Positions 40,947-63,589 of a DNA stretch of 64,000 nt are shown one piece after another. Origin of the DNA: Nitrospira sp. Lineage in GTDB: Bacteria > Nitrospirota > Nitrospiria > Nitrospirales > Nitrospiraceae. The stretch is from the NCBI GenBank assembly GCA_005116835.1, contig SWDM01000004.1, positions 214,749 to 278,748 of the forward strand, given 5' to 3'. Each line of letters begins with the position of its first letter. Position 1 is the first letter of the stretch. A program made the translations under genes and the position numbers. A model generated the notes under the pieces. That model was not told where the DNA came from. It saw nothing but the letters and a program-made list of their open reading frames with translations, and ran no database searches.

Positions 40947-42293
40947 TTAGAACAGATAGACGGCTGAGAAACCCAAGGTTGATTGATTGTCCACTCCCCG
41001 TTGACCATAGAGGAACGCATCCTTGTTCGAAATGTCGTGCCGGAACTCCATCCGCGTCATCAGCGAAGGAGCCGGCTTGTATTGAAGCGTAAAGGTATAG
41101 GACTGGAGGGTCTGTTCGACTCCAGTGCCCGTTGCAGTATTAAAAATACCACTGACACCAGAACCAGTACCAGTCGTAAACCCATTGCCTGCTGTAATAG
41201 CACAGGTATTTGAGCCGCCGTTGAAATTACCGCCCCCGACACAAGTACGAGTTCCACCTGCATCCTCGAAGAGCTCTCCACGAACCCTGACGCTGAATGC
41301 ATGGGGCTTCGATTGATCGTTGAAGTCATGGGTGTAATAGGCGAGGATCGCATTCCAGCGAGCATTCTGAGATGCACTGGTTGCACTGGCATTACCCTCG
41401 TTTCCGTAATAGGGCTCGATGATGAGAGTATCCCTGTCGGTCGGCTTGATCGTGATGAGGGCTCCCACCACCGTTCGCTTGGCAGTAGGATCGCACCCGG
41501 TAGCCCTTACACATCCAGCAACGGCTGCATTACCACCGCCAGTTCCGGCGGGATTGCCAGCATTGCCATTCGACTGTTCTGCTCCGTAGGATCCGTACAC
41601 GGTAAACCCAAACTTCTCGTGCGGGGTCAAAGCCAGGTTCCATGTGACTGTTTTGCCCCGGTTGTTGTCCTCGATATTGTCCCACCCATTGACAAGTCCG
41701 ACCGCTGCGGTCGCCCATGAGGCAAAGGGATAGGTGAAGCGGATACCGGTCTCAGTAAAGGCCTGTGACAAACCGAACGTGAAGCTGCGGGAGAAGTTCG
41801 GATTCTCCCAGCTGTTGATCACCTCAAGCCCGATCAAGGTATTGATCTTTCCTGCTTGAATCTTTAAACCGTTGCCGATCGGGACGATGTACTCTGCATA
41901 GAGTTCATGGACGTCCAGCTCGTTGCTGTCGGTGCCGGGCTGGTAATTCGTGCGGGCCCGGGAGAATCTGGACTGGGCCCCAAAGTTGACCCTTGCGCGA
42001 AAGCCCACCCGGTCCATGGCGCTGCCTGCCGTGGCAGGCCGTTCCACCATAAACTGCGCCACCTGCGGCACGAACGAATTCGCCTGCGAATCGAATATGC
42101 GCAATTGGTTCAGGTTTGTTTGCGGATTGTTGAAATTCTGCGTGTAGGAGGCTTCCGCCGCCCCGGAGAACTTAAATCCCAACTCCTTCCAGGTGGTGTC
42201 TGCGTCTGCAGCTAAGGCGGCATGGCCGCCCAGCAGCGAAACCATCGCGCACATTCCTATTCCTATTCCCATACGACTACGTGCTGACTTCAT
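40947..42293 (-). CDS. Outer-membrane beta-barrel (porin-like)
   Basis: 448 aa with a signal peptide (ending GGHAALAADADTT). The mature part is rich in alternating aromatic strands (FGFTVYGSYGAEQS, HAFSVRVRGELFEDAGG, YTFTLQYKPAPSLMTRMEFRHD) and ends in SAVYLF, the terminal Phe typical of Bam-inserted barrels. It resembles the BBP2-type putative porins. The Gly/Asn/Thr-rich inserts could be external loops with a disulfide (CVRATGC). Preceded by a sigma-70-like promoter and a 300-nt structured leader with ANTAR-type hairpins. Substrate unknown; the amtB neighbourhood suggests a nitrogen compound. Confidence 0.75.
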   Translation of the reverse strand: MKSARSRMGIGIGMCAMVSLLGGHAALAADADTTWKELGFKFSGAAEASYTQNFNNPQTNLNQLRIFDSQANSFVPQVAQFMVERPATAGSAMDRVGFRARVNFGAQSRFSRARTNYQPGTDSNELDVHELYAEYIVPIGNGLKIQAGKINTLIGLEVINSWENPNFSRSFTFGLSQAFTETGIRFTYPFASWATAAVGLVNGWDNIEDNNRGKTVTWNLALTPHEKFGFTVYGSYGAEQSNGNAGNPAGTGGGNAAVAGCVRATGCDPTAKRTVVGALITIKPTDRDTLIIEPYYGNEGNASATSASQNARWNAILAYYTHDFNDQSKPHAFSVRVRGELFEDAGGTRTCVGGGNFNGGSNTCAITAGNGFTTGTGSGVSGIFNTATGTGVEQTLQSYTFTLQYKPAPSLMTRMEFRHDISNKDAFLYGQRGVDNQSTLGFSAVYLF

Positions 42294-42596
42294 ATCATCG
42301 TCCTCCTCGTCCGATTGGTGATTCGGTTTGCTCCCTTGCCACTCTCACCTCGACGCCATTGTCGATACGCACGCCATTGTGCGTCACACAGGCCCCTTTG
42401 CGCCCATCCGCTACTGACTTTCAACTCGATTCCCACCAGCCTATACAACAGGCACAATCCAGCCAATAAAAAACGTCCTCTAGCCACTTGGGGCCGGAGG
42501 ACGTCATTGTCCAAGCCGTACTAATGTATGAGTCCGGTGGGAAACGCCATTGTTTCCCTATTCTCAAGGACACCCCCCATGGGAGCCCTTATGCTG
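42294..42596 (-). promoter_or_regulatory. Leader with four ANTAR-type hexaloop hairpins (candidate antitermination element)
   Basis: Read on the minus strand. H1 (42558-42539) has stem GGGAAAC/GTTTCCC; H2 (42512-42499) GGAC/GTCC; H3 (42384-42367) ACGCAC/GTGCGT; H4 (42365-42350) TCGAC/GTCGA. All close a six-base loop: AATGGC in H1, H3 and H4, and AATGAC in H2. A at loop position 1 and G at position 4 are the known requirements of ANTAR-protein RNA targets, which are pairs of such hairpins. H2 shares bases with the 5' strand of the terminator at 42468-42504, so the two structures exclude each other. No ANTAR protein gene is in this window. Confidence 0.75.
42468..42504 (-). terminator. Intrinsic terminator inside the porin leader
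   Basis: On the minus strand ACGTCCTC (42504-42497) pairs perfectly with GAGGACGT (42480-42473), followed by six T (42473-42468, the first also closing the stem). It lies about 180 nt before the start codon and overlaps hairpin H2, the arrangement of an attenuator. Confidence 0.85.
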
Positions 42597-42602
42597 GGCG
42601 CT

Positions 42603-42631
42603 TTTATACCTGCCCCAGAAATACCTGTCAA
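42603..42631 (-). promoter_or_regulatory. Sigma-70-type promoter of the porin leader
   Basis: On the minus strand TTGACA (42631-42626), a 17-nt spacer and TATAAA (42608-42603), giving a start near 42596. The spacer (GGTATTTCTGGGGCAGG) resembles that of the carbonic anhydrase promoter at 43781. Confidence 0.75.
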
Positions 42632-43886: not shown

Positions 43887-44747
43887 GTGAGGAAGCTGAT
43901 TGCAAGCACGGTCGGATTGACGATGGTGACGCTCCTCAGTCCTCTGGTTTGGGCCCAGCAGGATGACAAGGCCCCGGTCCCATCAGTCAAAACACAGGCT
44001 GTGCCACTTCCTCATGACACGCCCCACTGGGACTACCAAGGCAAAAGGGGTCCTCGGTTCTGGGGTAAACTCGATCCGGACTTTTCGCTCTGTGAAGAGG
44101 GCAAGAACCAGTCGCCTATCGATATTGCAAAAACCACTCCTGCCACACTTCCGAAACTCCAAGCTGATTTCAGTCCGGCGAAGCTCCAGATCGTGCACCA
44201 CGAGCATATCGCCGACGAGATCAATAACGGCCATACCATCCAGGTCAACTATTCAGAAGGCGATACCCTCTCCATCGGAGACACCACTTACGAGCTCATC
44301 CAGTTCCATTTCCACAGTCCGAGCGAGCACACAGTCAAAGGTAAGTATTACCCGATGGAAATACATTTCGTGCACAAGTCTGCATCGGGTGCCCTGGCGG
44401 TCGTCGGCGTATTCATCGAGAAAGGCGCACACAATGCGGCCTTCGACCCAATCTGGGCAAACCTACCGAAGCAACAGGGGGTAGTATCACACTACGAGCA
44501 TGTCCAAGTGAACGTGGATGACCTCCTGCCGCACAGCACCAAGAGCTACCGTTACGACGGTTCGCTGACCACCCCGCCTTGTTCAGAGGGGGTGAAGTGG
44601 ATCGTCATGCAGTCCCCCATCCAGCTATCGGCGGCGCAGATCAAACAATTCACCTCACTCATTAAGGCGAACAATCGGCCGGTGCAGCCCTTACATCACC
44701 GAGTGACCGTGTCCGATGCGGTTGCAGAAAAGGTGATGGCCAATTGA
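43887..44747 (+). CDS. Periplasmic alpha-class carbonic anhydrase
   Basis: 286 aa from a GTG at 43887, set by AAGGAGG 7 nt upstream; an ATG five nt earlier is out of frame and closes at once. The signal peptide ends VWAQQ. The zinc site of the alpha class is visible: QFHFHSPSEH (two His ligands and the gatekeeping Glu) and MEIHFVHK (third His). SQSPIDI-like NQSPIDI and YDGSLTTPPCSEGVKW, which holds the Thr and a Cys that pairs with the N-terminal SLCEEG Cys, complete the set. It hydrates CO2 or dehydrates bicarbonate in the periplasm. Confidence 0.93.
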   Translation: MRKLIASTVGLTMVTLLSPLVWAQQDDKAPVPSVKTQAVPLPHDTPHWDYQGKRGPRFWGKLDPDFSLCEEGKNQSPIDIAKTTPATLPKLQADFSPAKLQIVHHEHIADEINNGHTIQVNYSEGDTLSIGDTTYELIQFHFHSPSEHTVKGKYYPMEIHFVHKSASGALAVVGVFIEKGAHNAAFDPIWANLPKQQGVVSHYEHVQVNVDDLLPHSTKSYRYDGSLTTPPCSEGVKWIVMQSPIQLSAAQIKQFTSLIKANNRPVQPLHHRVTVSDAVAEKVMAN

Positions 44748-51399: not shown

Positions 51400-53127
51400 C
51401 TAAAAAAGGAAGTAGCGTTGGGCCATGGGGAGAATCGCCATCGGCTCGCATGTCAAAATTTTCCCATCGGCTTTCACGACATAGGTTTCGGGATCCACCT
51501 CCATGTGCGGCAGGGCATCGTTCAGCTTCATATCGCGCTTCCCGATGGTACGGCACCCCTTCACCGCCACCACACGTTTCTGCAGGCCAAGAAACTTATG
51601 CACCTCTTGATCGATGGCTGCCTGGGAAAGGAAGGTCAGGCTCGTGGAAAAGATTGCACGGCCAAAGCTCCCGAACATTGGTCTGGTGAAGACCGGCTGC
51701 GGCGTAGGTATCGACGCATTGGGATCTCCCATGGCAGCGGACATAGGAAACCCGCCCTTCAAGACGATCTCAGGTTTTACGCCAAAAAAGGCAGGCTTCC
51801 AGAGCACGAGGTCCGCCAACTTTCCGACCTCAACTGAACCCACTTCATGAGAAATCCCATGAGCAATGGCCGGATTGATCGTGTACTTTGCGATATAGCG
51901 TTGCGCGCGAAAATTGTCGTTGGAGCCGGATGGCTTGTCGATGCCGGCTTGGGAAAGATGCCCCCGCTGCACCTTCATCTTGTGCGCCGTCTGCCAGGTG
52001 CGGATGATGACTTCACCCACCCGCCCCATCGCTTGCGAGTCGGACGACATAATGCTGATCGCTCCCATGTCGTGCAGGATGTCTTCCGCTGCAATGGTCT
52101 CACGGCGAATGCGCGACTCTGCAAACGCAATATCCTCCGGCACACGCGGGTTCAAATGGTGGCAGACCATGAGCATGTCGAGATGCTCGTCCATCGTGTT
52201 CACCGTGAACGGCATCGTCGGATTCGTGGAGGAGGGCAACACGTTCGCCTCGCCACAGACCTTGATGATGTCTGGAGCATGGCCGCCACCGGCGCCTTCC
52301 GTATGAAACGAGTGAATGGTCCGCCCCTTGAACGCCTTAATCGTGTCTTCAACGAACCCTGCTTCGTTCAACGTATCGGTGTGGATGGCGACTTGAATGT
52401 CGAATTCCTCCGCGACATCGAGGCAGGTCGAAATCGCCGCCGGCGTGGTGCCCCAGTCTTCGTGCAGCTTGAGCCCGATTACCCCTGCTTCTACCTGCTC
52501 GCGCAAACCTTCCGGCAGAGAGGAGTTGCCCTTTCCGAGAAAACCGAGATTGACCGGGAATCCCTCTGCGGCTTCCAGCATGCGATGGATGTTCCAGGCG
52601 CCAGGCGTACAGGTCGTGGCATTGGTGCCGGTTGCCGGTCCGGTGCCGCCGCCGATCAAGGTCGTCAGCCCGTTCGCCAAGGCCTCATTGATGATCTGCG
52701 GACAGATGAAATGGATGTGGGTATCGATTCCACCGGCCGTGATAATCTTCCCTTCAGCCGACAACACTTCGGTGCAGGCTCCGACCTCCATCCCCTTTGT
52801 CACACCTTCCATCATGTCGGGATTGCCGGCCTTGCCGATGCCGACGATGCGGCCATCCCGGATACCGATGTCAGCCTTCATGACGCCCCACCAGTCGATG
52901 ATGATCGCATTGGTGATGACGAGATCAAGCGCGCCCTTCGCGCGGGTGGCAGAGGGCGACTGGCCCATGCCGTCGCGAATGACTTTGCCACCACCGAACT
53001 TGGCCTCTTCGCCAGGCACGGTCAGATCGCGCGTGATCTCGATCAGCAAATCCGTATCGGCCAAACGGACGCGATCTCCGGTGGTAGGGCCATACAGATC
53101 GTTGTATTGTCGCCGCGGAATCTTCAT
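51400..53127 (-). CDS. ureC: Urease alpha subunit UreC
   Basis: 575 aa catalytic subunit hydrolysing urea to ammonia and carbamate at a dinickel centre. His137 and His139 in [10 protein letters not shown], carbamylated Lys220 in [11 protein letters not shown], further ligand His in [10 protein letters not shown] and [13 protein letters not shown], and the flap [22 protein letters not shown] with the catalytic His323 are all present. Length and spacing match the bacterial enzyme. Its usual upstream partner ureB is now 1.3 kb away because an IS110 element lies between. Confidence 0.98.
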
Positions 53128-53269: not shown

Positions 53270-54371
<1,102 letters not shown>

Positions 54372-62008: not shown

Positions 62009-63304
62009 TTAATACTGGAGCTGCAAGGCCAAATGGACAGAATCTTGGTGCCGACCTCCCTGAATGGCGCCGATCGTCGTAGGCCCGCCTGCTGGGTCCA
62101 GACTGCCAGTCCGCCAAAATGCCGATATGCGGGCATTGTGACCGCTGATGACGTAATTCGTGCCAAGTTCAAATTCATCGAGTGCGCTGGTATGTACGCT
62201 GTTCACGAAGGTATATCTCCCATAGGGCTGGAACCTCCCGATCCCGATCTCATTTGGAAACAGATACAAGGCGTACGCGGTGACTGAAGACCCGCTAAAC
62301 ATGCAGAAACAACCTGCATCCCCAGAGGCGGCAAGGTTCTGTGCCCAGTACCGTTTGTATTCAGCGTTGGCCGTGAACACGCCTTTGTTCGGGAGGACTT
62401 TCTCAAACAGAACATCGCCGACAAAACTCCCAAAAGCGCTTTTATTCAAATTTGAACCAGCTCCTGCATTCTGATATTCTCCACCTACTGCAAGGGCGAG
62501 AATATCCCCGGCTGTCCCGTAGTAGGTTCCGCTGGTGTAGTAGCCAGGATTCGACTCATCGTTCAGCAAGTTCCAGGTAAGACGTCCTGCATACTTCAGA
62601 CTGTTTCTTTCATTTGGTCCAACGACTGGTGTTCCCGCCCCTGACCGCAGCCCCTGGAATACCGATAAGACGTATTGCAGGTGCGTCCCACCCGGATGGA
62701 CTTTCCCGAAGAAGACCGCTCCATTGTCACGACCATAGAGACCGGCCCCACCTGCTCCAATGTTCCCACTGAAGTCGGCTTGATTAAACGGTGTCCGAAA
62801 GCCATCGAAGACCGCATGGTAGAAGGGACCGTTCAGTTCGCCTCGCTCTGTCGGTACCAAGGTGCGTCCGATCCAGAAGTTGACTGTCTCAGTGAACTCG
62901 AACTGTCCAATCGCATCGAGCAGGCCGATCGTGGTATTAGACGCGAAAATATTTCCAGCAGCTCCGGCTCCCGCCCCACTGCCATTACCTTGACCCACCG
63001 CACAGTTAAAACATTCTGTGTTGAACGCGAACTTGACGTACTTGTGGATCCCTCCGTTGATATAGATACGAGCGTTGTTGATCGCGAACTCGTTGCTCCA
63101 CTGCGACCGGCTCGCCGACCCATCTTCTATCGAATTAAAACTCATCCGGGTACCCATACCGATGGAAATATACTTGTCATCGTCCACCTTGATGGTCCCG
63201 CCTGCATAGGCGCTGGGAACGGTGGATACCATCCCTGCGACCAGCGTTATGGCAGCCCCTGCGACCACAAACAAATTCTTGAATCTTTGTCTATCTACCT
63301 TCAT
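62009..63304 (-). CDS. Outer-membrane porin of the urea island (FmdC-like position)
   Basis: 431 aa from the ATG at 63304 (MKVDRQRFKNLFVVAGAAITLVAGMVSTVPSAYAGG), which gives a clean signal peptide; the frame is open to 63424 but that part is the structured leader. The mature barrel starts IKVDDDKYISIGMGTRMSFN and ends VHLALQLQY. Strand-rich segments and a Cys pair (CFNCAVG, and CFCMF later) are visible. It heads the urtABCDE series on the same strand, so it probably admits urea or short amides through the outer membrane. This is inferred from position. Confidence 0.75.
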   Translation of the reverse strand: MKVDRQRFKNLFVVAGAAITLVAGMVSTVPSAYAGGTIKVDDDKYISIGMGTRMSFNSIEDGSASRSQWSNEFAINNARIYINGGIHKYVKFAFNTECFNCAVGQGNGSGAGAGAAGNIFASNTTIGLLDAIGQFEFTETVNFWIGRTLVPTERGELNGPFYHAVFDGFRTPFNQADFSGNIGAGGAGLYGRDNGAVFFGKVHPGGTHLQYVLSVFQGLRSGAGTPVVGPNERNSLKYAGRLTWNLLNDESNPGYYTSGTYYGTAGDILALAVGGEYQNAGAGSNLNKSAFGSFVGDVLFEKVLPNKGVFTANAEYKRYWAQNLAASGDAGCFCMFSGSSVTAYALYLFPNEIGIGRFQPYGRYTFVNSVHTSALDEFELGTNYVISGHNARISAFWRTGSLDPAGGPTTIGAIQGGRHQDSVHLALQLQY

Positions 63305-63365
63305 GTGACAGCCTCCCACGCCCCGTTGGTGATCCCATTGCCCGCTCATGATCGGTTTACTCACC

Positions 63366-63401
63366 TCGACGGCATCGTCGTTGCGCACCACATTGTGCGC
63401 A
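63366..63401 (-). promoter_or_regulatory. ANTAR-type hairpin pair in the leader of the urea-island porin
   Basis: On the minus strand TGCGCAC/GTGCGCA (63401-63382) closes loop AATGTG, with A at position 1 and G at position 4. CGAC/GTCG (63380-63367) closes loop GATGCC, which keeps G at position 4 but not A at position 1. The sequence around it (CGTCGAGGTGAG) aligns with the H3-H4 part of the other porin leader at 42350-42384. No terminator is seen between this pair and the start codon. Confidence 0.55.
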
Positions 63402-63589
63402 TCCCCAAACCCCTTGCCACCCATATCACCTCTCGGATCAATGGCTGGAAGCTATACGCTGAGCGACAGGATAATCACACTAGGCATCTCCCTAGGTCCG
63501 CGAGGCAATCTCCCTAGGCGAATGCCAGCGCGACGAGCGGGACGCGCGAGAAAAGCGCGACGGGTGAAGGGGATACGGCTAAAGGTTCG

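Follow-up and report, generated by a model that had tools for sequence, protein, structure and literature searches.

The 64-kb window, by which we mean the whole analysed stretch of the Nitrospira sp. contig SWDM01000004.1 (GCA_005116835.1), carries on its minus strand a gene for an outer-membrane porin of the BBP2/OmpL-like type (40947..42293, 448 aa; Pfam PF07642). The gene adjoins the ammonium transporter gene amtB and is preceded by a leader that runs on the same strand from 42631 to 42294. The porin start codon is the ATG at 42293, and a Shine-Dalgarno sequence AGGAGG (42302..42307) can be read in front of it. At the far end of the leader, a sigma70-type promoter (42603..42631) is read from the sequence as TTGACA (-35, 42631-42626), a 17-nt spacer and TATAAA (-10, 42608-42603). 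TTGACA together with a TATAA-like box occupies the same place in orthologous leaders; a generic promoter scan, which accepts only T as the final -10 base, misses the TATAAA promoter.

Hairpin search and folding place two hairpins with hexanucleotide loops in the first part of the transcript: H1 (P1; 42539..42558; 7 bp, gggaaac-AATGGC-gtttccc) and H2 (P2, the predicted antiterminator; 42499..42512; 4 bp, ggac-AATGAC-gtcc). An intrinsic terminator, located by folding, spans 42468..42504. It pairs ACGTCCTC with GAGGACGT (42504-42497 with 42480-42473), has a T-run extending to 42468 and a predicted stability of -19.6 kcal/mol. Further downstream, the hairpin search gives H3 (42367..42384; 6 bp, acgcac-AATGGC-gtgcgt) and H4 (42350..42365; 5 bp, tcgac-AATGGC-gtcga). 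On neither strand of the 64-kb window does any other hairpin combine an AATG[GA]C loop with a stem of 4 bp or more. The promoter, the four AATGGC/AATGAC hairpins and the terminator of the initial annotation were thus all located, the 8-bp terminator stem being complemented by an inner stem of 4 bp.

The 5' arm of the terminator (42504-42497) contains the 3' arm of H2 (42502-42499), and because these bases are shared the two structures are mutually exclusive, as had been proposed. Folding agrees: H2 forms in a transcript ending at H2, and the terminator replaces it in a longer one. The terminator segment CGTCCTCC could also pair with the Shine-Dalgarno region, GGAGGACG, but this is improbable, since the local terminator pairing should win and the ribosome sites differ among relatives. 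The linker between H1 and H2 (42513-42538, minus strand) contains a CCG...CGG in most porin leaders, and a small helix there may shorten it. No Rfam family matches the leader at threshold, livK (16.0 bits, E 6) and narK (15.1 bits, E 1.7) both lying below the cut-off.

Conservation and covariation of the H1/H2 pair

The promoter, both hairpins and the terminator that excludes H2 recur across Nitrospira, and many relatives have this leader before the porin gene. Among orthologous porin leaders the hexaloops are kept as the initial annotation would have it, with change almost only at loop positions 3 and 5 (AATGGC, AACGGC, AACGAC and AATGAC). The A at position 1 (A1), the G at position 4 (G4) and the C-G closing pair are present in both hairpins of this leader and of almost every ortholog; one ortholog (L037) has G1 in H1. 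The terminator stem shows a double change from C-G to U-A at one pair in two leaders (L009/L010). The stem of H2 hardly varies, nor does that of H1 within the porin set, which by itself therefore yields no covariation test and to that extent counts against the switch proposed below; covariation was tested across genes instead.

Sites with two hexaloops within 12-42 nt were sought in 61 Nitrospirales genomes. The pattern gives 65 matches, a few of them within genes and apparently fortuitous, compared to 2 for the reversed pattern; of 26 distinct porin leaders, 22 keep H1/H2 (manual count). The dual-hexaloop arrangement is therefore not due to chance. At 46 of the 53 distinct sites the stems of both hairpins reach 4 bp or more, and the terminator arm usually begins inside the 3' arm of H2.

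Eighteen leaders that belong to other genes in other genomes were aligned (A3), and the alignment was compared with shuffled versions of itself. Pairing is possible in 95.0% of its cells compared to 86.2% after shuffling (0/500), and it holds 20 double-sided changes compared to 6.7 (0/500). The compensatory changes that had been suggested as a check are seen in H1 across the order: at its pairs 3, 5 and 7 they exceed all 500 shuffles of the cross-gene set. The covariance model built from this alignment (R1), which includes no leader of the BBP2 porin family and nothing from the present genome, finds the porin leader, ranking it first in a whole-genome search with 57.4 bits (E 3e-14). Within the window the match covers 42495-42559 (E 5e-16), the next best scoring 6.7 bits. 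Second in the genome is the leader of a kinase/LuxR operon at C19:281491-281552 (47.3 bits); the other weak matches (C21:5287 and below, at most 17.5 bits) are unconvincing.

A candidate regulator and its putative target genes

The search for ANTAR-domain genes called for in the initial annotation returned exactly one in the genome. It encodes a protein of 421 aa with the architecture GAF-GAF-ANTAR (C19:282696-283961, minus strand), adjoins aroB and lies 4 kb past the window end, at a distance of about 25 kb from the porin leader. An ANTAR gene is present in 54 of 61 Nitrospirales genomes, almost always in single copy. As judged by sequence alignment, the protein keeps most of the residues with which EutV contacts RNA, namely R142, K143, K149, E160, M172 and R175, in a mapping done manually with the chain numbering shifted by two. 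Changed are K147 (to R), Y164 (to F), N173 (to D) and R177 (to S); the F for Y164 is found also in Rv1626, and the D for N173 in both Rv1626 and NasR. Pfam detects GAF in the protein and neither a receiver domain nor a NIT domain, so that it is neither NasT-like nor NasR-like, and the earlier suggestion of a NasT-like regulator has to be given up.

Across the order, dual-hexaloop leaders precede the BBP2 porin, a histidine kinase/LuxR operon, a formate/nitrite transporter (PF01226) followed on the same strand by nirA (NIR_SIR), NMT1_2/NrtA-type ABC binding proteins, and LuxR-type regulators and receiver proteins. The NAD synthetase gene, standing directly after the ANTAR gene, has such a leader in three genomes (G035, G050, G057), and an alpha-carbonic anhydrase has one of its own in another (G007; L158 1663-2520, minus strand). 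R1 has no match in front of the similar carbonic anhydrase gene of the window (43887-44747, plus strand). The nitrogen genes listed for Nitrospirales in the literature include NirC, NrtABD and NirA (PMC12342949). The leaders apparently delineate an undescribed regulon that serves in part for nitrogen uptake; a search of the open-licence literature found no paper naming the ANTAR domain together with Nitrospira. Considering the genes behind the other leaders (formate/nitrite transporter with nirA, NrtA-type proteins, porins, kinase/LuxR), the signal of this candidate regulon is probably nitrogen supply. The second leader of the present genome (C19:281491-281552, minus strand), 2.7 kb past the window end, precedes the genes of a Cache-PAS histidine kinase and a LuxR-type regulator, which are neighbours of urtA and of the second porin gene described below.

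The H3/H4 element

A pattern for H3/H4 has 34 matches in 27 genomes and none when reversed. All sites with a readable downstream gene precede one of two porin types, bar one chance coding match (L168). The element stands 48-65 nt before the start codon, at one site 73 nt; in the present leader 56 nt separate the end of H4 from the ATG. The second porin type has no Pfam family, gives a weak match to ExtI and is unrelated to the BBP2 porin. Its representative in the window (62009..63304, minus strand; 431 aa from the ATG) lies behind an H3/H4-type element with the loops AATGTG and GATGCC (63367..63398, minus strand). The longest reading frame of this gene (62009-63424, minus strand) begins upstream of the element and runs through it; the ATG at 63304 is the likely start.

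No terminator follows H3/H4. Where porin genes stand in tandem (G028), the first copy has H1/H2 and the terminator in front of it, the second H3/H4; elsewhere (G002) a small reading frame, probably for a lipoprotein, comes between H1/H2 and H3/H4. Because these arrangements separate the two elements, H3/H4 is tied to the porin cistron, independent of the terminator. The initial annotation had seen in the four hairpins a duplicated pair. The hairpins are real, yet H3/H4 is no second attenuator, because it lacks a terminator, keeps its place relative to the start codon and occurs without H1/H2 immediately before other porin cistrons.

Each of the 21 distinct forms of the H3 loop has A1, A2 and G4 (AATGGC in 16, AAGGGC in four, AATGTG in one). 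In H4, G4 is kept, part of the sites having come from a pattern that requires G4, but roughly every second distinct form has G in place of A1. With R1 the element scores 13.7 bits. Pair 6 of H3 is G-U in 14 of the 21 forms, which argues for a function in RNA rather than as a DNA operator. Palindromes are common near promoters, to be sure, and in some genomes the palindrome of H4 is perfect, but G-U pairs are common and extend to several pairs of H1, the sites invariably stand in sense orientation, and H2 shares bases with the terminator; that the inverted repeats are operator sites in DNA is accordingly very improbable. A small reading frame from the AUG in the H3 loop was likewise dismissed: it is not conserved, the loop reads AAGGGC in L007 and L034, and the stop positions differ.

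What H3/H4 does may be approached from ANTAR control of translation, described in mycobacteria for dual hairpins at ribosome sites (PMC8164766). The same ANTAR protein could bind H3/H4 and control porin translation, a reading consistent with this precedent, with the H3 loop of A1, A2 and G4, and with a distance to the start codon that is fixed in two porin families. The element, however, stops more than 40 nt short of the Shine-Dalgarno sequence without overlapping it, A1 is often missing in H4, and folding with H3/H4 forced or forbidden gives no consistent shift in predicted Shine-Dalgarno access, a result for which H3/H4 as a Shine-Dalgarno folding switch was rejected. We regard translational control by the protein as possible, if somewhat doubtful. 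Unlike H3/H4, which moreover co-occurs with a separate attenuator, the actinobacterial RNAs overlap the ribosome site or start codon; the likeness lies in hexaloop hairpins near a start codon without a terminator (PMC8164766).

The element might also work without any protein, for example as a 5' stabiliser or processing barrier of the porin mRNA, its ANTAR-like loops being due to common descent or chance. Each hairpin folds on its own, H4 accepts G1, in which case a tetraloop can form, and in G028 and G002 the element is found between cistrons. A simple stabiliser, however, would need no A1 or G4, and the almost invariant H3 loop fits the ANTAR consensus; this explanation seems to us rather unlikely. 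Titration of the ANTAR protein as read-through RNA accumulates, a feedback like that of EutX/Rli55 RNA on EutV, would fit an element that is present only in read-through RNA and lacks a terminator, considering that single hexaloops bind EutV and that sequestration by RNA is known (PMC8934654). Such a function has no need for a fixed position relative to the start codon, and we consider it improbable. Taken broadly, H3/H4 most likely would tune porin expression after transcription, through translation or mRNA stability, or soak up the ANTAR protein as feedback.

Proposed mechanism and relation to known systems

By its anatomy, the H1/H2 part of the leader belongs to the ANTAR antitermination RNAs (PMC3369931, PMC8934654, PMC7496416): two stem-loops with hexaloops stand in tandem, with A1, G4 and a C-G closing pair, a terminator is predicted to exclude the second of them, and the genome encodes a candidate cognate protein with EutV RNA-contact residues. 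The rank of the leader in the R1 search, the kept hexaloops and the presence of one ANTAR gene all point to the antitermination that the initial annotation had suggested for the porin, and on such sequence evidence the leader is very probably an ANTAR-dependent switch. Absent a signal, the terminator would form and transcription stop near 42468. In its active form the GAF-GAF-ANTAR protein would engage H1 and then H2 as the hairpins leave the polymerase, and with H2 so held the porin would be transcribed. The GAF domains perhaps sense a nitrogen-linked signal. H3/H4 would constitute a separate element, present only in the read-through RNA, of which H3 at least has the loop of an ANTAR target. 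A single ANTAR protein might in this way act twice on the porin message, by antitermination at H1/H2 and then at H3/H4 through translational control or feedback titration, a proposal that we advance tentatively and at somewhat less than even confidence.

Against the antitermination switch stands the linker of 26 nt. In the eut RNAs it measures 5-12 nt, and lengthening abolishes induction (PMC3369931, PMC8934654). The published ANTAR RNA motif allows a variable linker (PMC3369931), so that the 26 nt are understood as a difference from eut rather than as a departure from the family; linkers longer than those of eut are general in Nitrospirales. The eut RNAs recognised by EutV in Enterococcus faecalis share with the present leader the two A1/G4 hexaloop hairpins, the C-G closing pair and a second hairpin exclusive with the terminator. 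They differ from it, besides the linker, in having a receiver-domain regulator, whereas the Nitrospira protein has GAF domains and the gene controlled would be that of a porin. The nasF leader of Klebsiella oxytoca offers a parallel in its hexaloop pair before a terminator, its one-component ANTAR regulator NasR and its genes for nitrogen uptake, the Nitrospirales set also holding nitrite transport and nirA; NasR, however, senses nitrate/nitrite by a NIT domain in place of two GAF domains. The NasS-NasT leaders of Paracoccus and Bradyrhizobium are comparable in that nitrogen oxyanion genes are controlled there by ANTAR antitermination. NasT, however, joins a receiver to the ANTAR domain and has NasS as its partner, whereas the only ANTAR protein of the Nitrospira genome is GAF-GAF-ANTAR.

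The main nitrite oxidisers belong to Nitrospira, as do the comammox bacteria, and gene control in these organisms is little known. Our study suggests for them a single candidate regulator whose RNA targets form a defined set, conserved throughout the order and concerned with porin expression and with the uptake of nitrite and, probably, further nitrogen compounds. H3/H4 would extend ANTAR control further or else reveal a new element of porin leaders.

Two observations concern the urease genes of the window. An Rfam match to 5_ureB_sRNA (94 bits; 52686-52981, plus strand) is antisense to the gene for urease alpha (51400-53127, minus strand) and is probably due to conservation of the coding sequence. 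Immediately upstream of that gene, an open reading frame resembling an IS110-type transposase occupies 53421-54371 on the plus strand.
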